Assembly: GCA_024398615.1 (NCBI GenBank)
Contig: JAKSIU010000023.1
Location: 1 to 44,122, forward strand
Reading direction: 5' to 3'
DNA from: Bacteroidaceae bacterium
GTDB lineage: Bacteria > Bacteroidota > Bacteroidia > Bacteroidales > Bacteroidaceae
Length of the DNA: 44,122 nucleotides
The notes beneath the pieces are model-generated. The model had not been told where the DNA came from. It saw nothing but the letters and a program-made list of their open reading frames with translations, and ran no database searches. The translations under genes were made by a program, and so were the position numbers. Positions 1 to 44,122 of this stretch are shown one piece after another (the stretch's first letter is position 1; each line of letters starts with the position of its first letter).

Positions 1-28
1 TTGCTTATCGTATGTCATAGGTTATTGC

Positions 29-70
29 CTATGGCTGGGGTACCTGAGCAGTTACTGAAATTTTTCTCAT
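29..70 (-). pseudogene. 5' stub of a lost lipoprotein-type gene
   Basis: A minus-strand ATG at 70 opens a 13-codon frame (MRKISVTAQVPQP) that stops at 29-31. Directly upstream lies a 51-bp sequence identical to the one that precedes the intact propeller gene starting at 1187. I infer that this is the beginning of a further tandem paralogue whose body has been lost. An inverted repeat CATAGG-N6-CCTATG (17-34) lies just beyond the stop. The window ends too close to judge further. Confidence 0.3.
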
Positions 71-121
71 ATCAATAGTTCGTTAAAAAGTTTATAAATA
101 TATAGTTATCAACAAATTACA
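71..121. repeat. 51-bp direct repeat, copy 1
   Basis: Identical over 51 bases to 1186-1236, starting ATCAATAGTTCG and ending CAAATTACA. Both copies end directly at a minus-strand ATG (70 and 1187), so the repeat is a duplicated 5' leader or promoter of tandem paralogues rather than a random repeat. Confidence 0.9.
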
Positions 122-167
122 ACTGGTAAAAAGAATAATATAAATCGAATACTTGAGCTCATATAGC

Positions 168-1187: not shown

Positions 1188-1236
1188 CAATAGTTCGTTA
1201 AAAAGTTTATAAATATATAGTTATCAACAAATTACA
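1186..1236. repeat. 51-bp direct repeat, copy 2 (leader of propeller gene)
   Basis: Perfect copy of 71-121. It overlaps the first bases of the propeller gene starting at 1187 and reads as its AT-rich leader on the minus strand. No clean TAnnTTTG box is visible inside it, so any promoter assignment is tentative. Confidence 0.9.
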
Positions 1237-1308
1237 TTTCAAATAGTCCGCTTTCGTCACTTCAACAGACAACTTTTTGGGACACTATCTGCATAGCCGC
1301 ATATTCTT

Positions 1309-2418: not shown

Positions 2419-2545
2419 CTTGATATTAATTAAGTTAAACATAAATCAAAAATAATATCTTAGTACAACCTAAACAATTAAACACTAAAATGATAACAAA
2501 TACCATGTATTTAACAAGACCTTTTATCAAATGCATAATTAGATA

Positions 2546-3715
2546 CTATCTAAGTGTAATTTTCAATAAAACAGGATTGGAATCAGGTTGAATATCGTCA
2601 ATGAATCTAGAAGCTATGAACCAAGGAATTGATGTTATAATTTGATTGTTCATGCTTGAATGAAAATCAATGAATAATTTTAAATCGTCCAGTTTAATCC
2701 AATAACCGGTCCTATCGTCGGATATCTTATACAAAGGTTGTGATATTCCCTTTCTCCAAATAACATTTGTAACACGGTTGCCATAATAAAAACAATCAAA
2801 AATATAGTTCTCTGATTCAAATGGATAAAAAACATCTTGATAATAATATTTAGCTTTCTTCTTTTCCCTATCTGCATCATTAGATAATAACGGCTTTTGT
2901 TTTTCCGGTATATTAATTACAAAGGCTGGTTTAATTAAATCTTTACCACTTAAAGAAAATACCGTATCATTCAACATATCTCTGTATAATGCTCCATAAG
3001 GAGATCTAGTTAATGCTGAGATAATAACTGGCCCCTCTCTTCTTTCCACATAACGTTTTTTGTCATCTGAATAAGTTTTTAATAATTTCATATTTGAGTC
3101 AAAAAAAAGCATAAAAGGATGAAGTTTGTTTCCTTTATTATCGACACCATTAAGACACGCAATACTACCATCTGGTAGTGGAGCTAATTTACTTACCACA
3201 ACACTACCATCAGTCGATTCATAAGGCCGACAATGGGTAATATTTCCCGTTTCTACGTTACAAATAAGTATCTTATCAAAACCTAATATCAATATCTCAT
3301 TTGTTGATTGATTACAAAAGGAATTAATGGTTTGTGCTATTTCGTTCGGCCCTCTTCCTATGTTGTAAAGATTACGAATAAATTTACCATCTTGACCAAA
3401 TACTGCGATTCGAAAATTTAACATGTTCCGACCATGTTTCACTATAATATAATCATTCATTGATTCTATATCTAGCACCATGTCTACCAATGAATTTTCA
3501 TTGGTTTCCAAGGGAATCAAATGAAATGATTTTATAATATTGGTTGTAGAAAGTGTATCTATAGATGAAACACCTTCTAAGTCATACACTAAAAATTGTG
3601 AATCATCTTCATTCAACGTACTCACTTCTAATGGTATATTTTCAGATGATTGTTTTTTATTTTGACAGGACAGTAAAAATAAAGAAATGCAAAACAGAAA
3701 AGAAGGCCTTCTCAT
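2546..3715 (-). CDS. 6-bladed beta-propeller lipoprotein
   Basis: About 389 aa from ATG 3715, where MRRPSFLFCISLFLLSC gives a short lipoprotein signal ending LLS-C. The in-frame ATG at 3766 would add 17 residues. It overlaps the repressor stop as ATGA, so translational coupling from that start is possible. Family features are the SFHLIPLET segment, a GQDGKFIRNL strand and a GRGPNEI turn, as in other propeller lipoproteins here. It is directly downstream of the BlaI-like repressor and probably co-transcribed with it. Substrate or partner is unknown. Confidence 0.75.
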   Translation of the reverse strand: MRRPSFLFCISLFLLSCQNKKQSSENIPLEVSTLNEDDSQFLVYDLEGVSSIDTLSTTNIIKSFHLIPLETNENSLVDMVLDIESMNDYIIVKHGRNMLNFRIAVFGQDGKFIRNLYNIGRGPNEIAQTINSFCNQSTNEILILGFDKILICNVETGNITHCRPYESTDGSVVVSKLAPLPDGSIACLNGVDNKGNKLHPFMLFFDSNMKLLKTYSDDKKRYVERREGPVIISALTRSPYGALYRDMLNDTVFSLSGKDLIKPAFVINIPEKQKPLLSNDADREKKKAKYYYQDVFYPFESENYIFDCFYYGNRVTNVIWRKGISQPLYKISDDRTGYWIKLDDLKLFIDFHSSMNNQIITSIPWFIASRFIDDIQPDSNPVLLKITLR

Positions 3716-3762
3716 AATCGTATTTTTTGATAAAACGACCGAAATGTGATGACTGAATAAAT

Positions 3763-4125
3763 TCATTCAGCTCCTTTTTCAATCAGGTCTATCAGTTCCT
3801 TCAGTTCATCAACAGTTATTTTTTCGTCATGGACAAGACATGATACCAGACTCTTGTATGAGCTGCCAAAGTTCCTGCTGACTATGTTCTCGACACTCAT
3901 CTGACCGCAGTCCTGACGTTCTATTGCCGGATAGTACTGGAAGGAACCGCCAAAGCCCCTGTGGGTCAGGTAGCCCTTGGCTTCAAGCGAGCGCACGTAT
4001 GTTGACAGTGTGTTGATGTGCGGTTTTGGTTCAGAATAAAACTCCAGAAGGTCCTTTACAAACATCGGTCCGTTCTGCCAGAACAGGTTCAAAACAGTTT
4101 CTTCTTTCTTCGTGATTTTCTCCAT
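3763..4125 (-). CDS. BlaI/MecI-family transcriptional repressor
   Basis: About 120 aa from ATG 4125 (MEKITKKEETVLNLFW). The upstream in-frame Met at 4188 would add a cysteine-rich tail not typical of the family. The winged-helix core runs from about residue 5 to 75, with a recognition-helix region around NTLSTYVRSLEAKGYL and a wing with THRGFGG. The C-terminal half is the usual helical dimerisation part. Known relatives pair with a BlaR1/M56 metalloprotease sensor that cleaves them. No such gene is adjacent here. Instead, propeller lipoproteins follow immediately, so the signal input is unclear. The long leader (4126-4280) contains several dyads that could be autoregulatory operators. Confidence 0.85.
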   Translation of the reverse strand: MEKITKKEETVLNLFWQNGPMFVKDLLEFYSEPKPHINTLSTYVRSLEAKGYLTHRGFGGSFQYYPAIERQDCGQMSVENIVSRNFGSSYKSLVSCLVHDEKITVDELKELIDLIEKGAE

Positions 4126-31576: not shown

Positions 31577-32278
31577 ATGATTTACTCAAAAGAAGTAGAA
31601 AACATGTGCATCGTCCAGAAAGGACCGAAGCACGGACCCGCTCCAATACCGGAAGAGGGCAAGTGGATCAAGGCCAAGGAAATCAAGGACATTTCCGGCA
31701 TGACCCATGGAATTGGCTGGTGCGCTCCTCAGCAGGGTGCCTGCAAGTTGTCACTCAATGTCAAGAACGGTGTCATTGAAGAAGCTCTGGTTGAAACAAT
31801 CGGTTGCTCGGGCATGACCCATTCAGCAGCTATGGCTGCCGAGATCCTTCAGGGCAAGACCCTGCTCGAGGCTCTCAACACAGACCTTGTATGTGATGCC
31901 ATCAACACCGCCATGCGTGAACTCTTCCTTCAGATTGTCTACGGCCGCACACAGAGCGCTTTCTCAGAAGGCGGACTGGTAATCGGTGCAGGTCTTGAGG
32001 ATCTGGGCAAGGGCCTCCGTTCACAGGTAGGAACCATGTACGGCACCAAGGCAAAGGGTGTCCGCTACCTTGAAATGGCCGAAGGTTATGTGAACCGCAT
32101 CGCCCTTGACAAGGACGATCAGGTTTGCGGCTATGAGTTTGTCAACCTTGGCAAGTTCATGGATGAGATCAAGAAGGGAACCGATGCCAACGAGGCACTG
32201 AAGAAGGTTACATCAACCTACGGACGTTTCTCAACCGAGGCCGGTGCCGTCAAGTTCATTGACCCACGTAAAGAATAA
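31577..32278 (+). CDS. NifU/IscU-like iron-sulfur scaffold-type protein
   Basis: 233 aa. The N-terminal part holds IscU-type cysteines: IGWCAPQQGACKLSL and VETIGCSGMTHSAAMAAEILQGKTLLEAL, which correspond to a scaffold fold. C-terminal residues ~130-225 are family-specific (VGTMYGTKAKGVRYLEMAEGYVNRIAL). It is always found beside GGGtGRT proteins in anaerobes, as here. A role in metal cluster assembly is inferred, not shown. The next gene starts 12 bp downstream after a strong GGAGG site. Confidence 0.8.
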   Translation: MIYSKEVENMCIVQKGPKHGPAPIPEEGKWIKAKEIKDISGMTHGIGWCAPQQGACKLSLNVKNGVIEEALVETIGCSGMTHSAAMAAEILQGKTLLEALNTDLVCDAINTAMRELFLQIVYGRTQSAFSEGGLVIGAGLEDLGKGLRSQVGTMYGTKAKGVRYLEMAEGYVNRIALDKDDQVCGYEFVNLGKFMDEIKKGTDANEALKKVTSTYGRFSTEAGAVKFIDPRKE

Positions 32279-32290
32279 GGAGGTACTACT

Positions 32291-33319
32291 ATGATTAGAG
32301 AAGTCAAGTTCGAATCACAGGACCGCCGCATGAAGCAGGTCCTCGCTGCTCTTAACGAGCATGGAATCTCCTCAATTGAAGAGGCTAACCAGATTTGCGA
32401 AAGCTACGGCATCGATCCTTACAAGGCATGTGAGGAAACCCAGCCTATCTGCTTCGAAAACGCAAAGTGGGCATACGTATGCGGTTGCGCCATCGCTCTC
32501 AAGGAGGGTGAAAAGACTGGCGACAAGAGCGCTGTCAAGGCTGCCGAGAACATCGGTATCGGCCTCCAGAGCTTCTGCATTCCCGGTTCAGTAGCCGATG
32601 ACCGTAAGGTAGGTCTTGGTCACGGAAACCTTGCAGCCCGTCTGCTCAATGAAAAGACCCAGTGCTTCGCATTCCTGGCCGGTCACGAGTCATTCGCAGC
32701 CGCTGAGGGTGCCATCAAGATTGCCGCAAAGGCCGATAAGGTTCGCCAGAAGCCTCTCCGCGTCATTCTGAACGGTCTTGGCAAGGATGCAGCTCAGATC
32801 ATCAGCCGCATCAACGGATTCACATACGTACAGACCAAGTTCGACTACTACACCGGCAAGCTTACCGTTGTCAAGAAGATCGCCTACAGTGACGGTCCCC
32901 GTGCAAAGGTCAACTGCTACGGTGCTGACGATGTCCGTGAGGGCGTTGCCATCATGTGGAAGGAAGGCGTTGACGTATCAATTACCGGTAACTCAACCAA
33001 CCCGACCCGCTTCCAGCACCCCGTTGCAGGAACCTATAAGAAGGAACGCGTACTGGCCGGCAAGCCTTACTTCTCAGTAGCATCAGGCGGTGGTACAGGC
33101 CGTACCCTGCATCCCGACAACATGGCCGCAGGTCCCGCATCGTACGGTATGACCGACACCATGGGCCGCATGCACAGTGACGCCCAGTTTGCAGGTTCAT
33201 CATCAGTTCCCGCACACGTCGAGATGATGGGCTTCCTTGGCATTGGCAACAACCCCATGGTAGGCTGCTCAGTAGCTTGTGCCGTTGACGTAGCCCAGGC
33301 ACTTGCCGCCAAGAAGTAA
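32291..33319 (+). CDS. GGGtGRT protein
   Basis: 342 aa. The name-giving motif SGGGTGRTLHPDN is near residue 270. Other conserved stretches are FCIPGSVADDRKVGLGHGNLAARLL, AFLAGHESFAAAEGAIKIA and GNNPMVGCSVACAVDVAQAL. Cysteines such as YVCGCA and VGCSVAC could bind a metal. Function not established. It forms a two-gene operon with the NifU-like protein. The start has an unusually good Shine-Dalgarno sequence for this phylum (AAGGAGGT, 8 bp before ATG), which fits strong expression. A 12-bp hairpin terminator follows. Confidence 0.9.
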   Translation: MIREVKFESQDRRMKQVLAALNEHGISSIEEANQICESYGIDPYKACEETQPICFENAKWAYVCGCAIALKEGEKTGDKSAVKAAENIGIGLQSFCIPGSVADDRKVGLGHGNLAARLLNEKTQCFAFLAGHESFAAAEGAIKIAAKADKVRQKPLRVILNGLGKDAAQIISRINGFTYVQTKFDYYTGKLTVVKKIAYSDGPRAKVNCYGADDVREGVAIMWKEGVDVSITGNSTNPTRFQHPVAGTYKKERVLAGKPYFSVASGGGTGRTLHPDNMAAGPASYGMTDTMGRMHSDAQFAGSSSVPAHVEMMGFLGIGNNPMVGCSVACAVDVAQALAAKK

Positions 33320-33391: not shown

Positions 33392-33916
33392 ATGAAAAAG
33401 TCATATCTTGTAGCTGTTGCCATAGCTGCCTTGGCCTGCTCCTGCGTCAGGGAACAGGAACAGACCCTGGTGCCGGACAATATGCTGTCGGTCAGGGCAT
33501 CGGTCGAACCAGCGCCCTCAAAGACGGTCATGAATGAGTCCGAGCAGGTCCTTTGGGAACAGAATGACAGGATAACAGTTGGCACTAATTCAGACGCATC
33601 GGCCGCATATGCCCGGGACTATAACGATTCACAGACATCGGTGACCGATGTGCTCTTTACCAACGCAACGGAAAGCACTGCCAATCCGCATTTCACCGCA
33701 AACGGTCAGATTGGCTTGTGGCGTACCCTGTCAATGGATGAATTGAACTACCTTCTCAATGTCAGGGAAGTGAACGGATATTGGACCTCAACGCCATCGT
33801 CGGATGAAAGCAACTGTGCCGGACTGTTGGGCATGGACTATTCTTCCGGTGTAGAACAACGTGTTACATACAGGACCTGCGGCAGTTCCGTACGTCTGGT
33901 CAGAACAGCACAATGA
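33392..33916 (+). CDS. Shortened fimbrillin/C-type-lectin-like lipoprotein
   Basis: About 174 aa from ATG 33392. Lipobox CSC near residue 20 (ALACSC). A short stretch of fimbrillin type (SKTVMNESEQVLWEQNDRITVGTN) is followed directly by pieces of the domain seen in the large lipoproteins: VLFTNATESTANPHFTANGQ, GLWRTLSMDELNYLL, then GYWTSTPSSDE and SSVRLVRTAQ. The FSQGNLYY start and the middle of that domain are missing, so it looks like a deletion derivative, perhaps nonfunctional. It overlaps the next gene by ATGA and is not preceded by the small conserved peptide. Confidence 0.7.
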   Translation: MKKSYLVAVAIAALACSCVREQEQTLVPDNMLSVRASVEPAPSKTVMNESEQVLWEQNDRITVGTNSDASAAYARDYNDSQTSVTDVLFTNATESTANPHFTANGQIGLWRTLSMDELNYLLNVREVNGYWTSTPSSDESNCAGLLGMDYSSGVEQRVTYRTCGSSVRLVRTAQ

Positions 33917-34854
33917 AGAAAATCATCAAGACAATGGCCGTCATGGCCGCAGCATTTGCAATTGCTTCCTGCAGCAGGGAGCAACTGGTTGAAACTGATG
34001 TGAACGCCACCGCAGGTGAAAGCGTAATCACCGCATCAATTGACAATGACCTTACAAAGACAACCCTGTCCGGCGACGATACTGCCGGATATGAGGTTTT
34101 CTGGTCAGAGGGAGATAAGCTTTTCGTGTCCGATGCCAATATTGAATGCTGGGCGGCAGTGTATACACTTGACAGATCTTCAGCAGGCAGCTCCAATGGA
34201 CTCTTTGGCTGGCATGAAGGAGATACATTCGTTAAGGTGGACGAAAACTGTCAGAGACCCGCATTCCAGGAAGACGTGTTGTATATGGCTCTGTATCCGT
34301 ATGATATTATTGATTTGGACAACGACTACAGGATAACATGGAAAACAGAGCAGACATACAGCGTGACCGACAGGTATATCCCCATGTTCAGTTTGGGTGA
34401 TTGTGAGAATAACGGGAACGCCCATTTCGTCTTCTCGAATCTTGGAGGTCTGCTCCGACTGACAGTAAAGGGTACGGCAACTGTCCGGTCCATAAAAATC
34501 AGCGCAGCCAATGATGAGGCAATGTCTGGAGAAATACGTTACGTCATACCCAATGAGGACGATAAATATTTCGCTTATATGGCAACTGAGATTGATGGTA
34601 TTCCGCTCGATACCAGGAATTATATTACCCTTGACTGCGGTACCGGTGGAGTTGATCTCAGCCCCGAAGGCACTGATTTCCATATCTCCATACCGTTGGG
34701 CGAATATACAGATGTAAGCATCGCCCTGACAGATATGAATGGCAATGTTTGTGAAAAGAGGCTCAAGGACGACAATCAACTTGTCATCAGGCGCAGCGAG
34801 ATTACCGTAGCCTCATTCACTGCAAGCGACTTCCATCCACAGATTGCACAATAG
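33913..34854 (+). CDS. Fimbrillin-family lipoprotein
   Basis: 313 aa. MKKIIKTMAVMAAAFAIASC-SREQLVET gives a lipoprotein signal. Its first ~75 residues match the N-terminus of the 1128-aa protein at 36805-40191. The rest is a two-part beta-sandwich typical of fimbrillin-like/Mfa-type proteins: TKTTLSGDDTAGYEVFWSEGDKLFVSD, LYMALYPYD, FVFSNLGGLLRLTVKGTATVRSIKI. It lacks the C-type-lectin part, so it may be the bare fimbrillin module. Probably surface-exposed. Co-translated with the shortened gene upstream and convergent with the next lipoprotein. Confidence 0.85.
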   Translation: MKKIIKTMAVMAAAFAIASCSREQLVETDVNATAGESVITASIDNDLTKTTLSGDDTAGYEVFWSEGDKLFVSDANIECWAAVYTLDRSSAGSSNGLFGWHEGDTFVKVDENCQRPAFQEDVLYMALYPYDIIDLDNDYRITWKTEQTYSVTDRYIPMFSLGDCENNGNAHFVFSNLGGLLRLTVKGTATVRSIKISAANDEAMSGEIRYVIPNEDDKYFAYMATEIDGIPLDTRNYITLDCGTGGVDLSPEGTDFHISIPLGEYTDVSIALTDMNGNVCEKRLKDDNQLVIRRSEITVASFTASDFHPQIAQ

Positions 34855-34930: not shown

Positions 34931-36271
34931 TTACTCCGCAAGCACCGCACGGACGGAGAGGCCGCCGTGGCGAGTGGCGCCGGTCAATGTCTGGTAGCTA
35001 TTATCTTTGATGTACAGTTTGATCGGGTCGATCGATCCACCGCTTAATTGCGTCGATGAAGTCCAGTAGTATCCACTTTTGTTTGTGAAGAAGAGTTCGT
35101 GTCTGCCATTAAGTCCATTTACATCGAAGTATCCAGCTACAGGGAGGAAGATGCTGTTGACTGAATAATCATCCTTGCCAGTGAACTTGAGTCCATTCAC
35201 GCCTCCTATAGCTGTCCACTCAACACTACATTTGTTGAAAAGTGCCTGAAGTTCTGCACTTGTCGGCATGCGCCATTTATCACCCCAAAGCTGGATGGCA
35301 GTATCATGGCCGCTGATATTATCCCCATCCCAGTAATTACTCATATCCTTATCTTTCGTACCTCCCCAACCATAATAGCCACCATATTCTGTTATCGATT
35401 TTGCACCTACGTTAAATTCTGCGAACTTAGGACCATTCTCCCAGAGCTGTATCCACTTGACCTTGTTGCCAGAGATTCCTGCTTCGGCTTTAACCTCTGC
35501 CTCACCTTGACCGAAAGGATATATTGCCAGTTCATAATACTTGCCAGCCTTGAGACCTTTTGATGTGGACTTGATGATCTGTTTCCCATCTCTGACGGTG
35601 AGTGCTGTTCCTGCAGGAACAGCTATGTAGTAAGTGCCTACCTCCGTTGCACTCAGGAGCGCTTGCCTGGACCCCACAAATGTAGGGCTGAATGATGAAC
35701 CACTGACTTTTAACCCATTGACCCAAAAATTCTCACCATTAATATTACTCATTACGTTGATATCGATGCTGCCCTTTTGGTTGACTATCTTCAAAAAGGC
35801 GAGCTTTGCAGGTTCCATTGTTATGGCCAGACCATCTTTACCAGTAACATTGCTACCATATGGTGTGCTGCCGAACAGTGCATACACATTGGCCAGATCC
35901 TCCCATTTGCCGGTCTGATCGGCAAGAGATACTTCCCTTGATGGGTAATAGGCATACCAACGAGCAGGCTCTGCGGTAGGCTGGGCATCGGTGCTGATGA
36001 AGTCCGTGCCATTGTTGGTGAAAGTGTAGTCGGAACTGGCGTTATCACCCACCTTATTGTACACCATGATCTTGTCACCCTCTGCAAAGGCGAAATGCCA
36101 GACACCTTCATTGTCGGTGAATGTGGCTTTTGTGTCTTCAGGCTGGGCTACTGTTGCATGGAGTATCATGCCCTTCTTCTGGGCTGTTTCAATCTGTGCC
36201 AGTTCTTCCTTGCTGCATGCGGTGAATCCAAGGACTGCAGCCATCATTGCAAAAAGTAAAGTCTTTTTCAT
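34931..36271 (-). CDS. Fimbrillin-FISUMP surface lipoprotein (cassette U1)
   Basis: About 446 aa from ATG 36271 (MKKTLLFAMMAAVLGFTAC). Lipobox FTA-C. Residues ~25-260 are fimbrillin-like (ATFTDNEGVWHFAFAEGDKIMVYN, WYAYYPSREVSL, LAFLKIVNQKG). From ~265 a Fibrobacter-succinogenes-major-paralogue domain of the FGE/C-type-lectin fold follows: VKWIQLWENGPKFAEFNVG, WGDKWRMPTSAELQALF, SIFLPVAGYFD, GYYWTSS, GGLSVRAVLAE. Probably displayed on the surface and ligand-binding. The first gene of the cassette is the small peptide at 36304-36447, 32 bp upstream. Its last domain resembles that of the 693-aa protein at 41431-43506. Confidence 0.85.
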   Translation of the reverse strand: MKKTLLFAMMAAVLGFTACSKEELAQIETAQKKGMILHATVAQPEDTKATFTDNEGVWHFAFAEGDKIMVYNKVGDNASSDYTFTNNGTDFISTDAQPTAEPARWYAYYPSREVSLADQTGKWEDLANVYALFGSTPYGSNVTGKDGLAITMEPAKLAFLKIVNQKGSIDINVMSNINGENFWVNGLKVSGSSFSPTFVGSRQALLSATEVGTYYIAVPAGTALTVRDGKQIIKSTSKGLKAGKYYELAIYPFGQGEAEVKAEAGISGNKVKWIQLWENGPKFAEFNVGAKSITEYGGYYGWGGTKDKDMSNYWDGDNISGHDTAIQLWGDKWRMPTSAELQALFNKCSVEWTAIGGVNGLKFTGKDDYSVNSIFLPVAGYFDVNGLNGRHELFFTNKSGYYWTSSTQLSGGSIDPIKLYIKDNSYQTLTGATRHGGLSVRAVLAE

Positions 36272-36303
36272 CTTTCCTGTCATTTAATGGTTACACTCTT
36301 GGC

Positions 36304-36447
36304 TTAGTTATCCCAGTCGCTGTCATCGCCTCTTTCAACAGTAGCATTGCTTAATGTGAAGCCGGTTTGCACGCTCTGACAAAGAACATTCTGAACATTC
36401 ACCTTGACCACTTTGGCCCGAGGTGCTTTGTAAGTCTTGATTGCCAT
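36304..36447 (-). CDS. Small conserved peptide of cassette U1 (47 aa)
   Basis: Too short for usual gene callers. MAIKTYKAPRAKVVKVNVQ followed by NVLCQS, then a variable tail with FTLSNATVERG and acidic DDSDWDN. The N-terminal 25 residues match the peptides at 40210-40353 and 41290-41415 (YKAP..KVV...VQ..LCQS). There is no signal peptide and a single Cys. It starts 39 bases after the end of its -7 box, and the leader is nearly identical to that of cassette U3. It lies 32 bp upstream of the large lipoprotein. Conserved head with variable tail recalls peptide precursors, but no modification enzyme is nearby. Function unknown. Confidence 0.8.
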   Translation of the reverse strand: MAIKTYKAPRAKVVKVNVQNVLCQSVQTGFTLSNATVERGDDSDWDN

Positions 36448-36486
36448 ATTTTGAAGTATTTATTACCCGGTTGAAAATTGTGGTCG

Positions 36487-36521
36487 CAAAGATAGGACTT
36501 TCAGTATTATTTGGCGAACGG
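36487..36521 (-). promoter_or_regulatory. Promoter of cassette U1
   Basis: TATCTTTG on the minus strand (36487-36494), with TTCG 20 bp upstream in place of TTTG. The CCGTTCG-N6 left arm of the shared dyad is present but the right arm (AATACTG) is degenerate. The remaining stretch up to 36752 has no convincing gene, only a weak GGA.GTTAG/CTAAC.TCC hairpin around 36687-36715. Confidence 0.65.
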
Positions 36522-36752
36522 ACAGATACAACTATCGCATTCCCGAGCAGGAGAATCTTTGGAATGCCTACCGTAGCGAAGCTGTTCCGTTTCGCAGATG
36601 TCGCCGAGAATATAATGCCTCATCTCTCCGCCTCGTATGTGATGATTCCTGGGATCCGTTTCGTTACAGGCGTGAAATCAAGAGGAAAGGAAGTTAGCCT
36701 GCTTCGCCTAACCTCCCGTTTATCGGCATTTTGACTATCCTTCCAGAAACAG

Positions 36753-36785
36753 AAGCAGCCGTATGTCAATGACACACGGCTGCTT
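36753..36785 (-). terminator. Terminator hairpin after cassette U2 lipoprotein
   Basis: AAGCAGCCGTATGTC-AAT-GACACACGGCTGCTT, 14 of 15 positions paired, followed on the minus strand by a T-rich run. It lies 20 bp beyond the stop of the 1128-aa lipoprotein. Confidence 0.8.
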
Positions 36786-36804
36786 GACGTATAAAGTGAT
36801 TCCG

Positions 36805-39800
36805 TTATTTCACATCTGTCACGAGGCGGACAGCCAGGCCGAAATGGCGACCGTCGGAAACGGCTGTTTTGATACCTGTTTTCCCGATGCTCAGGTAGTA
36901 TGCTTTTTGGTCACCGTCATTGGTGGATGACCAATAATTGCCGTAATCTTCTATATCACCATAGACACTGCCACCACCGCGATATCCTGCAAATGGCAGG
37001 AAGATTGCTCCGGCAGACTCCATTGCTGCCCAGTTCTCTACGGAATATGTATTGGAGGTAAAACTGGTGGTTGCTCCGGTCACGAATGCATTGCTGCCAC
37101 CATTCTTCATAGGATCGGTGAATTCATCAGGAAGGATGATGAGTCCATTTTTGCCCCATATCGTTGCATAACCGAACTTGTTTGCAGCACCTTCTCTTCC
37201 TTGGAACAGATAAACCCACTCATCTTTTGAGAGAGTACGCCAGGTATCCTTGTCGTCAATGGCTTTGTCCCAATCAACGAAGCTTCCGGAATACGTGCTG
37301 TTATCTGAAGACGTGTTCATTCCATAAGTTGTGGTGGAGGTAGACCAGCCAAAGAGCCCCCAATGGCCGTTGGCTGTGCCGTCATCGTCATATCCGTTAA
37401 TGTCGCATTTGCCTTTACCACTATATGTGCGGAAATAATATTGCTTCGACTCAAACCCCCAATTGGCACCATCATAATACAGGTTGCCCTGTGAGAAATG
37501 GACCTGCTTGCCGTCTGCTACGGTAAACTTTCCTGAAAGGGCTCCGTTTGGCCACTTGAACCAACCAGCGTAAAGGGTGATGTTTGCATCAACGATATCT
37601 GAGTCAAAATCCCACTTGTTTGTGCAGTTCTTGTCCGTATACCATCCTAAGAAATCATACCCTGCAACATTCAGATCGGTCGGTTTGGTGATGGTCGAGC
37701 CATACAGGACCTTCTTGAGTTCAGCAGGTGCCGTGCCATGACCGTTGGCATTGAATGTGACGGTGTAAGTCGGGGTTGGTGATCCTGACAGTTCCATGAC
37801 GAGACGGATAGAACTGCCGTAGTTTCTGGGCCTATATGAAATATTAACAGATTCCGAATTGAAAGTCAATGCATATGCATAAGACTGATAAGTTGAATAA
37901 ATCACGGACTCCGGAGTAGGAGTGTTTAAGAAGTAGTACCCATTGTATCCAACATTACGAACATTATTTCCGTCGCGGTAGCCGGCGGCTGGCAGGAAAA
38001 CTATGCCTGCTGCAGAAATTTCTGACCACCTTTGTGGAGCTCCATCGGTACCCATCAATGGTCCATTGTAATCGTCAGGATAGAGGAAAATACCATTAAA
38101 AGTGCTACCGAGAACGCTGATTCCGCAACAGTAATTCTCATATCCTACACGGGAATTGTCCATTATGCGACGTTGGTTGAACAGATATTCACACTCCTCC
38201 TTGGTCAAAGCACGCCATGCTGTCTGACCATTAATGTTAAGGATTTTCCTATTTGTGAAGAGGACATCCGTTTCTGTATATTTGTATTCGCCAAAGTTCT
38301 CATTATAAGGAGTGTTACCGTCATAATAATAGGTTGTTGTCCAATATAAATGGGATATATGATATTTATCCCGAGAAAGTATGCCTTGACCGTAATTGTC
38401 TTTCCTCGGTACGGACACACATTGGTAAGTCTCAAAGTGGAATCCTTCGTTAACGTAACCACCATTTATAAGTTCATAATCTCTTGACCCATAATAAAGA
38501 TTGCCCTGCGAGAAGAATACCCGTTTGCCGTTAGCATCGATAGTGAACAGGCTTGGAATAGCTCCTTCAGGCAATTCAACCCATCCGGCATAAAGGGTGG
38601 TGTTGGCGGTCACGACATCGGAACCGAAATTCCATTCGGTCTTGCAACCCTTGTCCTTGTACCATCCTACGAATACCAAACCGTCAGCAGACAGGGCGAC
38701 ACTCGGTTTTGTTATCGTTGAGCGGTACTGGACTCCGGTGATGTTGGCCGGAGCTGTGCCGTGGCCGTTCATGTCAAAGGAAACGGTGAAACTGGGATGG
38801 TCGATGTAATCAGTGACAAGCCGGACATGGTTTTTATTTTCAGATCCAGCTATAGGGGTAGGCAATATGGAAGGTGGCCAGGCGCCATTTTCGTAACGTA
38901 GGGCTTCTGCAGCAGGAAGATCTTCCTGAATGCAGGTGGAAGACCAGTACCATACCAGACTCTCGTTGACCGGCAGGAAGACGCAGCCTTCCGGAATGGA
39001 TGTCAACCCGTCTGTCGGACCGGTATATCCATCGCAGAAGATAATGATTCCTGTTACATTATCGATGGTCGCCTTACCTATGCCGTTATCCCTATTAATG
39101 AGGTAGTTCCATTCGTCCTTAGATAGTGTACGCCATAACCCCTTCTGACCATTGGCTGTGAAATTGGGATTGGCAGTATTTTCATCGGCATTCGTAAAGA
39201 AAGCACTCGAGCCGTTCGGATCAAGAGACCACCCGGAACCTGTGGCGAGATTGGCGCTGTTGGTCCAGTAGAATGAAGAGACGTGATTTTCGACATTGTA
39301 ATTGTACTGGTTGTCTTCAAATTGGTAATCAGTTCCATCCCAGTACAAGTTGCCCTTGGAGAAATAGACTTTCTTTCCTTCTTCAGATACGGTGAATATT
39401 CCAGAAAGCGCTCCCTCCGGAGCGAGTTTCTTGAAGTCATTGGCCGTAAATGAGGCGCGGGTAATCTTGCTGCGCTCTATGACAAGGTCTTTGGAACTGA
39501 GGGACTTGACGCAGCACTTGCCGTCCTTGGACGAAATCAGTATGCTGGTCTGCGAGTACTCACCATAGGGCATGGCAATGTGGAAGACTGTGCCGTCTGT
39601 AGCGTTCAGGGCAACTCCATCACCGCAGTTCAGCGTGATGTCCTCAAGGTCTTTTGCACTTACCGTTATGCTCTGAACCAGGATGTTTTCCGAACCCTTG
39701 ACAGTAAGGCGCAGTATGCCGCCCTTGTTCGTGAAACTGAGGGACTTTTCCGAGACCTCTCCACCGGAGACTGTAACAGATGCCGTCATCGGTGAACCGG

Positions 39801-40191
39801 TGATGTTATTCGCTGTGTAGGTCTGTGAAGCCGGCCAGTCTTCGCCGTTGTATGTTGCAGGATAGCATGCGGTGTATGTGCCGTCCTCTGCAGGAAGGTC
39901 ACCCTGGAAGGTGCCTTTGGTGGTGTTCTCACCGGCAATAAGGGTGAACTCGTTGCCTCCAATAGCGATCTTGTCACCTGAGGACCAGACCACATTGTAG
40001 CCCTCAGAATCGCTGCCGTTGAGGGCAGTCCTGGTGTTGTCGTTGAGGCTGTTCTCGGTGAATGCCGTGATGATGCAGCTGCCTTGGACTGGGGTGGCAT
40101 TGTTCTCCGTTTCAATAAGCTGCTCCCTGCTGCAGGATGCCACTGTGAATGCTGCTACGATGGCAGCAATTGCGATGATGTTTTTCTTCAT
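36805..40191 (-). CDS. Giant modular fimbrillin/C-type-lectin-like lipoprotein (cassette U2)
   Basis: 1128 aa. Lipoprotein signal to VAS-C (residue 20). Residues ~21-260 are fimbrillin-like. Then three copies of a domain starting with GALSGIFTV..GKKVYFSKGNLYW (about 262, 548 and 883), each with WRTLSKDEW, FLP.AGYR and YWSS-type C-type-lectin/FGE-fold motifs and ending VRLV. Between them lie two Listeria-Bacteroides (flg_new) repeats (about 465-545 and 807-875; NGHGTAP.., FVGWYKDKGC, LYAGW). The C-terminus is again VRLVTDVK. Expected on the cell surface as a multivalent adhesin or binding protein. The peptide at 40210-40353 is 18 bp upstream. Confidence 0.88.
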   Translation of the reverse strand: MKKNIIAIAAIVAAFTVASCSREQLIETENNATPVQGSCIITAFTENSLNDNTRTALNGSDSEGYNVVWSSGDKIAIGGNEFTLIAGENTTKGTFQGDLPAEDGTYTACYPATYNGEDWPASQTYTANNITGSPMTASVTVSGGEVSEKSLSFTNKGGILRLTVKGSENILVQSITVSAKDLEDITLNCGDGVALNATDGTVFHIAMPYGEYSQTSILISSKDGKCCVKSLSSKDLVIERSKITRASFTANDFKKLAPEGALSGIFTVSEEGKKVYFSKGNLYWDGTDYQFEDNQYNYNVENHVSSFYWTNSANLATGSGWSLDPNGSSAFFTNADENTANPNFTANGQKGLWRTLSKDEWNYLINRDNGIGKATIDNVTGIIIFCDGYTGPTDGLTSIPEGCVFLPVNESLVWYWSSTCIQEDLPAAEALRYENGAWPPSILPTPIAGSENKNHVRLVTDYIDHPSFTVSFDMNGHGTAPANITGVQYRSTITKPSVALSADGLVFVGWYKDKGCKTEWNFGSDVVTANTTLYAGWVELPEGAIPSLFTIDANGKRVFFSQGNLYYGSRDYELINGGYVNEGFHFETYQCVSVPRKDNYGQGILSRDKYHISHLYWTTTYYYDGNTPYNENFGEYKYTETDVLFTNRKILNINGQTAWRALTKEECEYLFNQRRIMDNSRVGYENYCCGISVLGSTFNGIFLYPDDYNGPLMGTDGAPQRWSEISAAGIVFLPAAGYRDGNNVRNVGYNGYYFLNTPTPESVIYSTYQSYAYALTFNSESVNISYRPRNYGSSIRLVMELSGSPTPTYTVTFNANGHGTAPAELKKVLYGSTITKPTDLNVAGYDFLGWYTDKNCTNKWDFDSDIVDANITLYAGWFKWPNGALSGKFTVADGKQVHFSQGNLYYDGANWGFESKQYYFRTYSGKGKCDINGYDDDGTANGHWGLFGWSTSTTTYGMNTSSDNSTYSGSFVDWDKAIDDKDTWRTLSKDEWVYLFQGREGAANKFGYATIWGKNGLIILPDEFTDPMKNGGSNAFVTGATTSFTSNTYSVENWAAMESAGAIFLPFAGYRGGGSVYGDIEDYGNYWSSTNDGDQKAYYLSIGKTGIKTAVSDGRHFGLAVRLVTDVK

Positions 40192-40209
40192 AGTGATAGT
40201 GCTGCTTAC

Positions 40210-40353
40210 TTAATCCCAACTGCTTTCGTCATAACTGTAGCTGCCAAGAGTGAAGCTCTCGGTATTCTCTCCCAGCTGGCTCTGGCACAGCATGCTCTGA
40301 ACTTTTATCTCTACTACCTTGGTCTTGGGGGCCTTGTAAGTCTTATTTTCCAT
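40210..40353 (-). CDS. Small conserved peptide of cassette U2 (47 aa)
   Basis: MENKTYKAPKTKVVEIKVQ plus SMLCQS, then a variable tail (QLGENTESFTLGSYSYDESSWD). The head is shared with the other two peptides, and the FTLG and terminal acidic-W elements recur in U1. No signal peptide. It ends 18 bp before the 1128-aa lipoprotein and begins about 84 bases downstream of the -7 box at 40437-40444. Its leader contains an imperfect repeat of ATCGGATTAAT. Same gene order and promoter style as in U1 and U3. Confidence 0.8.
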   Translation of the reverse strand: MENKTYKAPKTKVVEIKVQSMLCQSQLGENTESFTLGSYSYDESSWD

Positions 40354-40436
40354 ATTGTTAATGATTTGATTATCGGATTAATATCGGATTAATATTGGAT
40401 AATTTGGGGATTTTGGGGATTTTGAGATTGCAGATG

Positions 40437-40473
40437 CAAAGTTAAGACTATCCGTCTGATTTGACAAACGGAT
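40437..40473 (-). promoter_or_regulatory. Promoter and dyad of cassette U2
   Basis: Minus strand TTTG (40465-40468) and TAACTTTG (40437-40444), 20 bp apart. ATCCGTCTG-N6-CAAACGGAT (40450-40473), 8 of 9 paired, overlaps the -33 box; the same dyad is at cassette U3. Confidence 0.8.
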
Positions 40474-40661
40474 GGATACTAAACATGGAGGATTATCCAT
40501 AAACGCGACATCTATCGCATATGCTTTTTCGTTCCGAATCCTTTCCTTGTTCTTCGTGGAGTATTTATTTGTATAAAATGCCGATATTCACGAATAGTAA
40601 TCATAGATTTACAGAAGGCTGTGCAAAACAATCGCAGAATTCTATAAGTTCTTACACCTTT

Positions 40662-40697
40662 TTCGGTATTTGTTGTGTATTTGCAGTAAATACCGAA
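40662..40697. repeat. 10-bp inverted repeat before the ATPase remnant
   Basis: TTCGGTATTT (40662-40671) and AAATACCGAA (40688-40697) are perfect inverted copies, spaced 16 bp, ending 5 bp before the ATG of the degraded ATPase gene. Operator or promoter element of that former gene. Confidence 0.6.
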
Positions 40698-40701
40698 TAG
40701 G

Positions 40702-41166
40702 ATGGACGGATATGTAAAAAGAGAAAGAACAATCAGAGCGAACTTGTCGACAAGGAACTGCTGAAAGCATATATCTATGAGCGTATCCTCTCCAATCCAA
40801 ATAACATTTCGAATACGCTGTTGAGCGTTCAACATTGCAAAGTCGATGCGGAGACTGTGTTCACGCGGCTATCTGGTTGATGTGGGAATGATTGAGTCAC
40901 GTGAGCTTGTGGGCGGAAAACAGGAATACAGGCAATACGAGGTTGATTTCATTGTGACCGATGGGATGAGGAAATATTACATCCAATCTGCATATTCTAT
41001 TCCTGATGAAGACAAGATGGGGCAGGAGCTGAAATCATTCAGAAAGATAGATGACTCATTTCAGAAGATTGTGATAGTAGGTAACGATATCGCTACATAC
41101 ACCAATGATGAGGGTATTATCTTTATGGGGCTGATGCAGTTCCTGGATAATGAATCCATCCTTTAA
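40702..41166 (+). pseudogene. Remnant of an AAA ATPase with DUF4143-type C-terminus
   Basis: From ATG 40702 a start MDGYVKRER runs into a stop. In another frame SELVDKELLKAYIYERILSNPNNIS continues, and in a third frame RGYLVDVG and RQYEVDFIVTDGMRKYYIQSAYSIPDE..MGQELKSFRKIDD follow to the stop at 41166. These match the first residues and the DUF4143-type C-terminal region of the AAA_14/DUF4143 ATPases common in Bacteroidales; the ATPase core is missing. At least two frame changes and a large internal deletion make it a clear pseudogene. It lies between the divergent cassettes U2 and U3. Confidence 0.75.
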
Positions 41167-41215
41167 AAGGAACTTGGTGACGACCAACCGATAACACAAT
41201 ATGTTTCCGATTGAT

Positions 41216-41250
41216 CCGTTTGACAAATCATACGGATAGTCTTATCTTTG
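41216..41250 (+). promoter_or_regulatory. Promoter and dyad of cassette U3
   Basis: TTTG (41219-41222) and TATCTTTG (41243-41250), 20 bp apart. CCGTTTG-ACAAAT-CATACGG (41216-41235) covers the -33 box and matches the dyad of cassette U2 including the spacer. The 39-nt leader after it is nearly identical to that of U1 (TTCAAyCGGG..AAATACTTCAAAAT). Confidence 0.85.
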
Positions 41251-41289
41251 CGACCGTAAACTTCAATCGGGGAAAAAATACTTCAAAAT

Positions 41290-41415
41290 ATGGAAATTAA
41301 GGATTACAAAGCACCTCAGACCAAAGTGGTCAAGGTGAACGTGCAGAGCATCCTCTGCCAGAGCGAGTTTGAACTTACTCAGCGTCAGGACTGGGAAGAC
41401 GGAGGCGAGATTTAA
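41290..41415 (+). CDS. Small conserved peptide of cassette U3 (41 aa)
   Basis: MEIKDYKAPQTKVVKVNVQ plus SILCQS, then a short tail EFELTQRQDWEDGGEI. Closest in the head to U1. It ends 16 bases before the ATG of the 693-aa lipoprotein, with a TTAGGAG site in between. It is conserved in head, promoter, leader and downstream gene type, which argues for a real gene. Function unknown. Confidence 0.82.
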   Translation: MEIKDYKAPQTKVVKVNVQSILCQSEFELTQRQDWEDGGEI

Positions 41416-41430
41416 TTAGGAGAAATGGTT

Positions 41431-43506
41431 ATGAAGAATGTATTCAAGATGATTGCCATCGTCATGATGATGGCTACCGTATTCTCCTGTGAGAAAGTTG
41501 AGACTCCCGAAATGGAGACAAAGAAGGATGCTACAATTACCTTTACCGCTGATTTCCTTGGTACAAAGACCAGCTTCACTGAAGGCAAGCTGACCTGGGA
41601 AGCCGGAGATAAGATCGCTGTCTGTGATGGGACAACCGTAGAGACTGTTACTCTGAAAGCAGTGGACATCAAGGATGACGGAGCTTCAGCAGAGATTAAG
41701 ACCGCCACGCTTAAGACCGATGCGTCGGAGTATTATGCAATCTTCCCTGCGGCTTGTGCGTACAATGAAGTGGATTACACAAAGCTCAACACCTTTATCA
41801 AGGAGGATGGAAGCATCCAGATTTCCACCGGTACTACCAACAGAGACAAGAGCCAGACCTTCAAGAGTTATGCTATTGCATCGGAAGCAGGTGGGCATTT
41901 CATGTTCAAAAATGTTGATGCGATTGTCTATTTCAAGACCGACAGGACTGATATTGCCAAAGTGGAGTTTAAGTCAAACGTGTCCGGAATGACTAAGAGT
42001 AATGTTCTGATCAACCCGGCGACAGAAGAGATTACCCATAGTTCTTATTGTGAAGCCCGTACGGTCGAATACAAATTGAATGGGGACAAGGAAGCATACA
42101 TTCCTGTAAGTGCAGGAGTCACATTTGTCGGTGGATACACTCTGACAGCTTATGACTCAAATGGCAATATCCTTGGTACTGTCAGCACAAGTACCGACTT
42201 GTCTTTTGAGAACGGTAAGTACTACACCATCAAGAATTTTGACTCCCGACTGCAATTCCCGCTTTCTGACGCTGTACTTCCTGGCGTGTTCAATATATCA
42301 ATTGGCAAGCATGTTCAATTCTCTCAGGGCAACCTTATCTGTGATATATCAGGTGAAACGCCAAAGTGGGGATTCTATGAGAATCAGTATGGCTATGCAA
42401 CCGGATACAGTTCAACTCTCATCAGCCTTTTCACTTGGGGCTACGATCCAATAGAGTCCTTGTATCCTGGTTCTATCATCAGTAATACTATTAACCATCT
42501 GGAGGGTAACTACTTGCCACAGGATAAGGATTGGGGCTCACAGATTGGTGACGGGAAAACATGGCGCACTCTGACCGGGGAAGAGTGGAAGTATTTGTTT
42601 GAAACAAGAACGAATGCGCAAGATAAGTACGGCTATGCAACTGTAGGCGGTGTTTATGGCATTATTATCCTTCCTGATATATTCACCGATCCTATGAAGA
42701 ATGGTGGCAGCGGAGCATTCGTGCCTAAAACAACTACCGGATGGAACGCAAATGTATATACGACCGGAGGAGACTGGGAAGCAATGGAGGCTGCCGGAGC
42801 AGTCTTCCTTCCTGCTGCTGGAAGCCGCTCTGGTTCCTCTCTCTCCTATGTTGGCGACTACGGTTTCTATTGGTCGTCTTCCCATCCTACGAATAGTGGC
42901 CCCTATGGCGTCACTTTCGATAAATCCTTTATTAACCCATATTCCAGTGGTGACGCCACCACAGGAAAGTCTGTCCGACTTGTGACAGGCTCCACTACTA
43001 GCGACTTCGCTGAGGCCACAATCGACGGTAAAGCCACTTACGTAAAATGGATTCAACTCTGGGAGGATGGCCCAAAGTTCGCTGAGTATAACGTAGGCGT
43101 TACCGACGGCAAGGCTGAAAGCTATGGCGGTCTATATACATGGGCAGATAATATTGCATCAGCACAATGGGGAGACAACTGGCGTATGCCGACAAGTGAT
43201 GAATTTGCCGATCTCATAAAGAACTGTACATTCAATGAGGTAACGCAAGATGATGTAAAATGCCTGATATGTACTGGTAAGGGGAATTATATAGATAACA
43301 GTATATTACTTCCTTATAATGGCTACAACAGTCCCCAATTTGGTAACGATTACATTAACTCTATCGGCGAATACTGGTCTAGTACTCCCTCTGAACAAGG
43401 TGGTGCGAACTTCTTGATGGTAGGCTATCATAGCGATAACATCCCTTTTGTGAAGGGATGCGTACTTAACTATGGTCTCTCTGTTCGCGCTGTGCTTGCG
43501 GAGTAG
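41431..43506 (+). CDS. Fimbrillin/C-type-lectin/FISUMP lipoprotein (cassette U3)
   Basis: About 691 aa from ATG 41431, 9 bp after AGGAG; ATG 41425 is only 3 bp after it. MKNVFKMIAIVMMMATVFSC signal with lipobox VFS-C. Residues ~25-280 fimbrillin-like (GTKTSFTEGKLTWEAGDKIAV, YYAIFPAA). About 285-535 is one GVFNISIGKHVQFSQGNL domain with WRTLTGEEWKYLF, FLPAAGSRSG and FYWSSSHP..VRLVTG. From ~540 a FISUMP domain (YVKWIQLWEDGPKFAEYNVG, WGDNWRMPTSDEF, YWSSTPSEQ, GLSVRAVLAE). The two C-terminal halves thus combine the domain types of cassettes U2 and U1. Surface binding or adhesion is likely. Confidence 0.85.
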   Translation: MKNVFKMIAIVMMMATVFSCEKVETPEMETKKDATITFTADFLGTKTSFTEGKLTWEAGDKIAVCDGTTVETVTLKAVDIKDDGASAEIKTATLKTDASEYYAIFPAACAYNEVDYTKLNTFIKEDGSIQISTGTTNRDKSQTFKSYAIASEAGGHFMFKNVDAIVYFKTDRTDIAKVEFKSNVSGMTKSNVLINPATEEITHSSYCEARTVEYKLNGDKEAYIPVSAGVTFVGGYTLTAYDSNGNILGTVSTSTDLSFENGKYYTIKNFDSRLQFPLSDAVLPGVFNISIGKHVQFSQGNLICDISGETPKWGFYENQYGYATGYSSTLISLFTWGYDPIESLYPGSIISNTINHLEGNYLPQDKDWGSQIGDGKTWRTLTGEEWKYLFETRTNAQDKYGYATVGGVYGIIILPDIFTDPMKNGGSGAFVPKTTTGWNANVYTTGGDWEAMEAAGAVFLPAAGSRSGSSLSYVGDYGFYWSSSHPTNSGPYGVTFDKSFINPYSSGDATTGKSVRLVTGSTTSDFAEATIDGKATYVKWIQLWEDGPKFAEYNVGVTDGKAESYGGLYTWADNIASAQWGDNWRMPTSDEFADLIKNCTFNEVTQDDVKCLICTGKGNYIDNSILLPYNGYNSPQFGNDYINSIGEYWSSTPSEQGGANFLMVGYHSDNIPFVKGCVLNYGLSVRAVLAE

Positions 43507-43548
43507 ATTGAGTTCACAAGAAAGGACAATTCGAAAGATTGAAAATAT

Positions 43549-43581
43549 AAAGCGATCTCTGCCAACAGCAGGGACCGCTTT
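43549..43581 (+). terminator. Terminator of cassette U3
   Basis: AAAGCG.TCTCTGC-N5-GCAGGGA.CGCTTT, 42 bp after the stop, followed by a pyrimidine run. Confidence 0.7.
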
Positions 43582-43736
43582 CTGTTATCTGAAACTTGGT
43601 GAATTTGTCGCGTATAACCATCCATCAACTGCATACATGATGATAAACAACCGCAAAACTCTTTAAGTTCTGTAGTAGTAAAGAGATAGACATAAGCCGC
43701 TGAAACAAATATGTTTTTCCTGACTTTATCAATGCG

Positions 43737-43925
43737 TCACCCATTTGGCGTTAGCCAGTCGTCGGTTTCGATGAGGTAGGCGATGTCACGCTCCTCCTTC
43801 GACGTGTAGAGCGTCCTGGTCACGGTCTGTCGGCTGTAGTTTGCGCCTTGTGAGAGACGCTCAATAGCACATCGAAAGCATAAATAATCATCACTGCATC
43901 CTTGGAATTCTCCGGGGATGCAGTT
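43737..43925 (-). pseudogene. Possible coding remnant, minus strand
   Basis: An open frame without a Met reads GCSDDYLCFRCAIERLSQGANYSRQTVTRTLYTSKEERDIAYLIETDDWLTPNG and stops at 43737-43739. Its charged, protein-like composition suggests the C-terminal end of a lost gene, but I cannot name the family. The rest of 43507-44122 has no supported gene. Confidence 0.25.
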
Positions 43926-43930
43926 TTTGT
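43893..43930 (+). terminator. Strong hairpin with T-run
   Basis: ACTGCATCC (43893-43901) pairs with GGATGCAGT (43916-43924), followed by TTTTTGTTTT. It looks like an intrinsic terminator on the plus strand, but no gene for it is visible directly upstream apart from cassette U3. Confidence 0.65.
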
Positions 43931-44122
43931 TTTATACAACATATTTACGCCTCTGCCAAACACCAGGGACCGTTTCAATTTGAAGAATCCGAGTTCTCAA
44001 CGTTCCAGCACTTTGTGGGCACGTTACTGTCATTCATACAAACGGATGAACAAACTGATTCTTTTACAGTTTCCAACAGGCATACGTATTGCCATTAGCC
44101 AGATGCAACGCATTTGCAACGC

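Follow-up and report, generated by a model that had tools for sequence, protein, structure and literature searches.

Background

Linear polyphosphorylated peptides (LPP) are a family of ribosomally synthesized and post-translationally modified peptides (RiPPs) of Bacillota, called restricted to this phylum in PMC13381572, which holds no word beginning with Bacteroid. According to the same paper, presentation of the YxxP leader of the precursor depends on a RiPP recognition element (RRE), a signal-peptidase-like enzyme cuts the leader, and a kinase phosphorylates Ser3 of the core (PMC13381572). Here we describe a 44,122-nt contig (JAKSIU010000023.1, assembly GCA_024398615.1) of a Bacteroidaceae bacterium, called the window throughout, in which three short peptides are each encoded immediately before a large lipoprotein. 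As judged from sequence comparisons, the peptides make up a Bacteroidales small-protein family repeatedly coupled to exported proteins, and on balance we hold it probable that they are dispersed RiPP-like precursors, matured in trans by one RRE operon.

Much of the LPP scheme, as described in PMC13381572, has a counterpart or a candidate for one here: short precursors with a YxxP leader, a variable C-terminus and a Ser just past the leader region; a discrete PqqD-type RRE and a signal-peptidase-like leader peptidase; and, as candidate counterparts, an HprK-like kinase, an ATP-binding cassette (ABC) exporter at most loci and, at some, an NTP transferase (PF14907). Among the features that mark LPP membership in that paper, the short YxxP precursor, the discrete PqqD-like RRE and the Ser-His peptidase resembling signal peptidase I are all present. 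The location of the precursor inside the enzyme cluster, a further LPP trait, is seen in genome G055, holds within 2 kb in nine of 21 loci of the genus, and is not seen in the genome of the window. Unlike LPP as described there, the system belongs to Bacteroidales, and most precursors are scattered outside the enzyme operon, beside genes for exported proteins. We propose that the peptides may work like LPP, as a new variant whose novel element would be the many precursors beside exported-protein genes, served by one operon elsewhere.

The lasso leader/RRE pair TfuA/TfuB1 (6jx3) is similar in having a leader that starts with YxxP and an RRE of the PqqD type. Among solved structures, the PqqD profile matches TfuB1 alone (6jx3_B, E 4e-4), and the best solved match of the peptide head profile is the TfuA leader chain of the same complex (6jx3_A, E 0.1); weak when taken singly, the two matches to partner chains are telling together. 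That YxxP is a lasso leader motif is supported by the LPP paper and by the match to 6jx3_A. Unlike lasso clusters, the peptidase is signal-peptidase-like, and reading of the operons brought to light no macrolactam cyclase and no B2 peptidase, neither having been specifically searched for. A double-glycine (C39) leader was considered and dropped, the residue before the Ser being other than Gly in most heads.

On the partner side, the lipoproteins encoded after the peptides resemble in part the FISUMP and Mfa-like fimbrillin lipoproteins, the models of which, unlike the present cassettes, describe the lipoprotein only, with no co-encoded peptide. No report of the peptide family beside Bacteroidales surface proteins was found in the titles and abstract starts of open-licence papers.

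Peptide and lipoprotein cassettes in the window

The cassettes have the following components.

36304..36447, minus strand: peptide 1, 47 aa; open reading frame (ORF), E 2.7e-31 to the 3-row profile that contains peptide 1; head M1-S25 at 36373-36447, tail at 36307-36372
34931..36283, minus strand: lipoprotein partner of peptide 1, 450 aa (446 from an inner ATG), with an Lcl_C/FISUMP-like C-terminus
40210..40353, minus strand: peptide 2, 47 aa; ORF and profile match; head at 40279-40353
36805..40191, minus strand: lipoprotein partner of peptide 2, 1128 aa, with List_Bact_rpt repeats (Flg_new E 1e-36) and lipobox VASC
41290..41415, plus strand: peptide 3, 41 aa; ORF and profile match; head at 41290-41364
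41425..43506, plus strand: lipoprotein partner of peptide 3, 693 aa (691 from an inner ATG), with a FISUMP-like C-terminus

The first-pass annotation had read peptides of 47, 47 and 41 aa with a common head and variable tails, and the ORFs are indeed found at these places; the head common to the three is Y-K-A-P..K-V-V...V-Q..L-C-Q-S, after which the sequences diverge. Of the sizes assigned to the partners, 1128 aa is correct as it stands, 446 and about 691 aa hold from inner ATGs (full ORFs 450 and 693 aa). Likewise, the gaps of 32, 18 and 15 bp between peptide and partner are all recovered, the first and third only from the inner ATGs. Partner 1 features the lipobox FTAC-SKEE, and its scores to Lcl_C (E 4e-4), Fib_succ_major (E 2e-3) and, at the N-terminus, the Mfa1 family (E 3e-4) are all below cut-offs. 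Partner 3 comes close to the TIGR02145 cut-off (E 3.7e-10, 40.8 bits vs. 41.65). With the FISUMP and Lcl_C models, the three partners score below cut-off or give no match.

Two further lipoprotein ORFs adjoin the cassettes (window 33392-34854), one of which is Lcl_C-like (E 0.01); no peptide was noticed 5' of them.

The peptide family and its distribution

A profile made from the three peptides gave 11 matches in the genome of the window (G000), ten being members by inspection and one a chance match. This genome thus encodes ten clear members, seven beyond the three of the window; two more are G000:C13 (E 0.005) and L158:3908-4084 (by eye). The seven further clear members, together with the pooled substitution pattern described below, argue that the peptides are not chance ORFs. 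No Pfam or NCBIfam model scored above cut-off for the peptides, the one weak match being to a lasso-peptide model (E 0.55).

Distribution was monitored in 37 genomes of the genus and in a panel of 24 others, many genomes being incomplete. With the ten-row profile, 68 matches were obtained at E <= 0.01; they fall in 21 of the 37 genus genomes and in one of the 24 others (G060), where the match lies inside a long ORF and was taken as chance. Broader profiles detected the peptides in 12 of 15 genomes of f111, a second Bacteroidales family, in 10 of 18 of family f56 and in 5 of 61 of f42. Over the whole order the family is sparse at the sensitivity of the search (matches at E <= 0.05 in 16 of 295 genomes, with several of these matches short and partial or within long ORFs), and no member was detected in three genomes from two other genera of the same family. 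A profile search of genome contigs added three loci, two in Candidatus Cacconaster and one in a Bacteroidales metagenome-assembled genome from horse faeces; in two of the three, nearly identical copies of which one was scanned with Pfam, the ORF that follows the peptide resembles a GH20-type lipoprotein rather than a fimbrillin. Conservation of the head outside the locus, on which the earlier interpretation had been made to depend, is therefore seen both in the same genome and in other Bacteroidales. Two matches obtained in a plasmid collection with one peptide as query were judged chance.

In L189:3448-4557 (G281) the peptide head is continuous in frame with lipoprotein-like sequence, the whole ORF measuring 369 aa, through either a fusion or a lost stop.

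Substitutions were counted in 17 homologous pairs, each peptide being used once, and 63 of 67 peptides could be parsed. The pooled ratio of replacement to silent substitution rates (dN/dS) is 0.24 in the head (457 codons) and 0.36 in the tail (287 codons), and both parts are under pooled purifying selection. The excess of silent changes expected of a translated product holds for the pool and not for every pair: four of the 17 pairs have no silent change and one to four replacements, too few to judge, and in the pair G030/G017 the order is reversed (dN 0.17, dS 0.12). Silent-site change is lower in heads than in tails (pS 0.257 vs. 0.492). Tyr and Ser are invariant and Pro nearly so in 43 aligned heads, figures inflated by trimming and selection around the Ser; the same selection inflates the share of heads (117/130) with Ser at +18 or +19 from Tyr. 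Heads have a mean charge of +2.6, tails of -2.9; 56 of 63 tails are net-negative, and 53 of 63 contain an aromatic residue within the last six positions.

Gene neighbourhoods and exported partners

Sixty-seven genus loci were read, 66 from the 68 matches of the ten-row profile plus G000:C13; the match in G060 and one in a 361-aa frame of the genome of the window were left out as chance. The 67 include orthologues and are not independent, and lipoprotein and secretion assignments follow simple rules of our own. Loci were sorted into class A, with the peptide 5' of an exported-protein gene, and class B, with the peptide immediately after a gene whose product ends in a YNLNG..V..YxGIVIxNGKK-like sequence. 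The script returned 41 A, 14 B and 12 neither; G030:C57 was moved from A to B, having no lipoprotein next to it and given its upstream sequence. In the final count the gene immediately following the peptide encodes a lipoprotein in 40 cases; in 15 the peptide itself comes immediately after a gene for a secreted protein; and 12 fit neither arrangement, four of these being cut by contig ends. The lipobox rule is satisfied by 37 of the 40 class A partners, the remaining three having been assigned by eye, and, among 84 control ORFs 150 aa or longer, by 11. Domains found in the 40 at E <= 0.01 are Lcl_C (14), FISUMP (8) and Mfa_like_1 (2).

The balance between contexts varies among groups. Class B prevails in f111 (26 of 37 loci, with one A, three before a secreted protein, six other and one missed by the pattern), class A in f56 (16 of 21, with two B and three other), and f42 has one A, four B and two other among seven. 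Among ten class B neighbours scanned in other families, one scores above the cut-off of the type IX secretion system (T9SS) type A model and five more weakly; the 14 genus class B neighbours scanned gave no match to it at E <= 1. The genome of the window encodes SprA, and type IX secretion is therefore likely present. The prediction that the peptide would always lie upstream of FISUMP or fimbrillin lipoproteins fails, since 15 of 67 genus peptides and 26 of 37 in f111 are directly 3' of their neighbour, mostly a secreted-protein gene.

Close association with exported proteins of two kinds, with a tail under pooled purifying selection, is also what would be seen if the peptide were an unmodified small cytoplasmic chaperone or targeting adaptor, binding the exported protein or the export machinery before translocation. 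We consider this improbable: some similar proteins do without a peptide, both at window 33392-34854 and at three other FISUMP loci of the same genome (pattern search), and the YxxP form of the leader, the linkage to an enzyme operon and the peptide inside the G055 operon, described next, would be left unexplained.

A PqqD-type RRE operon elsewhere in the genome

NTP_transf_5 genes were found in loci of peptides classed as neither in three genus genomes (G005, G010, G015), and PqqD was therefore looked for. PF05402 matches were obtained in 31 of the 37 genomes of the genus and in 15 of the other 24. Outside the window, the genome of the window encodes a PqqD-type RRE, an S24 protein resembling signal peptidases and an HprK-like kinase in one operon, at G000:C45:11368-12973; no NTP transferase was seen in this operon.

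G000:C45:12707-12973: PqqD of the genome of the window, PF05402 E 6.3e-15

Twenty-one genus PqqD loci were read, leaving out a second G017 copy in a different setting. The HprK-like kinase is found in all 21, the S24 peptidase in 20, an ABC exporter-like gene in 16 (kinase and ABC gene of L253 assigned by eye; a Pfam check at one locus gave ABC_membrane and ABC_tran). In nine loci (G002, G007, G011, G012, G016, G025, G029, G033, G036) a peptide lies within 2 kb of the operon, with no gene between them in six (G002, G007, G012, G016, G025, G036), and in eight of the nine a secreted partner is visible too. Two of these peptides are profile matches (G012, G029) and seven were found by eye; the strict peptide pattern gave no match in a 120 kb control. 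In G055, of another Bacteroidales family, a peptide (head-profile E 0.0017) is directly 5' of the kinase gene, followed by an S24-sized ORF, PqqD, NTP_transf_5 and an ABC-like ORF; about 7 kb away, a second and weaker peptide (E 0.036) comes after the gene of another protein.

The S24 protein of the genome of the window scores above cut-off (PF00717 E 4.4e-6). In a profile of 19 such sequences Ser33 and His71 are invariant, and the best solved matches are signal peptidases (E 8e-4). P-loop residues are invariant in 18 kinase sequences; the HprK-like kinase is the weakest assignment of the operon. Peptide matches occur in 20 of 31 PqqD-positive genus genomes and in one of six PqqD-negative ones (read by hand), a co-occurrence that is weak, confounded by completeness and undercounted, the peptides of G002, G016 and G036 having been seen by eye only.

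The family, its two gene contexts, the pooled purifying selection and the operon are evident at the level of sequence. Among the functions suggested by the first-pass annotation, a dedicated chaperone or regulator has become less likely and a peptide precursor is favoured, because the heads resemble RRE-read leaders and an RRE, a peptidase and a kinase occur together in the same genome and at 20 of the 21 loci read in the genus. Each precursor would be co-transcribed with one exported surface protein. The head, YxxP...[IL][IL][CA]xS, would serve as leader and be bound by the PqqD element encoded elsewhere; by analogy with LPP, the conserved Ser where head meets tail ([CA]-x-S) may be phosphorylated by the HprK-like kinase, and the signal-peptidase-like S24 protein may cut near it. 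Where present, the ABC transporter would export the mostly acidic tail, which might then act beside its surface protein, a role of the tail that is speculative.

Several observations weigh against a maturation in trans of this kind. In the genome of the window the operon has no adjoining peptide or ABC gene. The linkage in nine of 21 loci is largely that of one syntenic place, and the strict peptide pattern, which finds five of the nine, gives six matches in 222 kb of reversed sequence. The S24 match is below the Pfam cut-off in G012 and missing in G055. The kinase falls short of the HprK cut-off (PF07475 E 0.013 in the genome of the window, 0.0056 in G012), the former scoring better to PEPCK_ATP (0.0017); the G055 kinase has no PF07475 match, and among solved structures the kinase profile matches only a PEPCK (E 0.081). 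The presence of PqqD says little by itself: of 17 non-genus PqqD loci read, only L271 and L274 contain both kinase and S24, and many represent another system. G010 has two peptide matches and no PqqD was found in it (80% complete), the search for PqqD covering the 37 genus genomes and the 24 others. The head match to 6jx3_A is not significant alone. Finally, compared by eye with the LPP leader consensus YxxPxVLxHQxIxFETxxS, as given in PMC13381572, the heads agree at Tyr, Pro and Ser only (Ser at +18 in LPP, at +18 or +19 here), and the system is not filed as LPP for this reason.

Still more conjectural, and in our opinion doubtful, is the wider picture in which one RRE operon would mature a fleet of phosphorylated, perhaps sugar-nucleotide-modified peptides, each made in step with an adhesin or a type IX cargo, as a genome-wide peptide decoration of the surface. 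RiPP precursors are usually sought next to their enzymes. Should the precursors indeed be matured in trans, RiPP-like chemistry in gut Bacteroidales would extend beyond what the mining of gene clusters reveals, and would be linked to lipoproteins of the surface and to secreted cargo; an unnamed small-protein family gains a predicted binding partner, modified residue and cut site.

PqqD loci of a different kind, in other Bacteroidales families (L265, L266, L270, L272, L273, L275, L278, L279, L281), encode PqqD with a protein of about 350 aa (TGLN..D.PGPG) and, where the contig continues, a protein of about 450 aa beginning with a Y/F-E-x-P leader-like motif, the frame being split in L272. In L274 (G048) an S24-like peptidase is apparently fused to an ABC transporter in a 746-aa ORF adjoining PqqD and kinase.

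Promoters and repeated DNA

Upstream of the peptides the following blocks were recognized.

36486..36505, minus strand: promoter block of cassette 1, ACTGAAAGTCCTATCTTTGC; three mismatches, alone no better than chance places; within the 151-nt block
40436..40455, minus strand: promoter block of cassette 2, ACGGATAGTCTTAACTTTGC; exact pattern match
41232..41251, plus strand: promoter block of cassette 3, ACGGATAGTCTTATCTTTGC; exact pattern match
36372..36522: arm 1 of a 151-nt inverted pair, with promoter, leader and head of cassette 1
41215..41365: arm 2 of the pair, with promoter, leader and head of cassette 3

All three peptides had been credited with a -7 box and a -33 element 20 bp upstream of it. 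The box, TAnnTTTG, is found 5' of each, at distances of 47, 91 and 47 nt from the peptide ATG, and the -33 TTTG is exactly 20 bp upstream of it in peptides 2 and 3, peptide 1 having TTCG there. Only cassettes 2 and 3 match the pattern exactly; when three mismatches are allowed, cassette 1 is matched along with three unrelated places, and a backward control gave 13 matches. No regulon sharing the promoter was detected beyond the window. Co-regulation of the cassettes, as originally put, thus reduces to local promoter copies, because exact matches are confined to cassettes 2 and 3. Of the proposal that peptides and lipoproteins form one functional system, a conserved family repeatedly coupled to exported proteins is retained, the shared regulon and a fixed place 5' of FISUMP or fimbrillin genes are not. 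A scan for sigma-70 promoters gave 11 matches vs. 8.6 in shuffles and one for terminators 4 vs. 4.5, and no Rfam match was found in 36000-44122 at E <= 0.5.

Across the genus loci the -7 box accompanies 20 of 41 class A peptides (3.5 expected) and none of 14 in class B. Its frequency, and the short gaps or overlaps between peptide and lipoprotein start, would suit a leader ORF acting only in cis, by setting the translation of the downstream gene. This is very unlikely to be the function of the family, given that the neighbouring gene precedes the peptide in 15 of 67 genus matches and in 26 of 37 in f111, and that amino-acid conservation reaches into the tail.

The 151-nt arms of cassettes 1 and 3 are 82% complementary and end at the LCQS codons; cassettes 2 and 3 have a 73-nt promoter block in common (75%). 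In f56 the head DNA is kept at silent sites, with a mean identity of 91% (n=14) vs. 70-78% in the flanks, and the same codon is used in the head core at a rate of 0.91 vs. 0.505 expected. A 30-nt head core (L103-L124, L194, L195) recurs there at 19 places, 13 of them exact and the others with one to three mismatches, in five of 17 genomes; head DNA conservation in this group exceeds the need of the protein. Lipoprotein signals of f56 likewise share codons (0.69 vs. 0.324), and recency therefore explains part of this conservation. In the genus, the same-codon share of heads is 0.421 vs. 0.356 expected (15,546 comparisons), in the genome of the window 0.481 vs. 0.371, and among the three peptides of the window 0.545 vs. 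0.388, from 44 comparisons only. Codon sharing being only slightly above the expectation from codon usage, the head is conserved mainly as protein in the genus. A head serving as a site of recombination or gene conversion, at which tail and lipoprotein cassettes are swapped, would account for the inverted block ending at the head and for the silent-site conservation in f56. Near-expected codon identity led us to drop it for the genus, and with recency accounting for part of the f56 pattern we rate it the least probable of the readings considered. Trans-acting maturation of RiPP-like precursors is the reading we retain.

Other features of the window

Between the divergent cassettes 2 and 3, a 106-aa ORF (window 40846-41166) has no Pfam match; it resembles the end of a decayed ATPase gene. 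Positions 1-4000 have a GC content of 30-32%, vs. 43-60% in the remaining 2-kb steps, and contain lipoprotein-like ORFs, one of them DUF5128/DUF4934. At 31577-33319 a NifU-like protein (E 1.5e-4) is followed by a full-length GGGtGRT protein (PF14057, E 1e-186).

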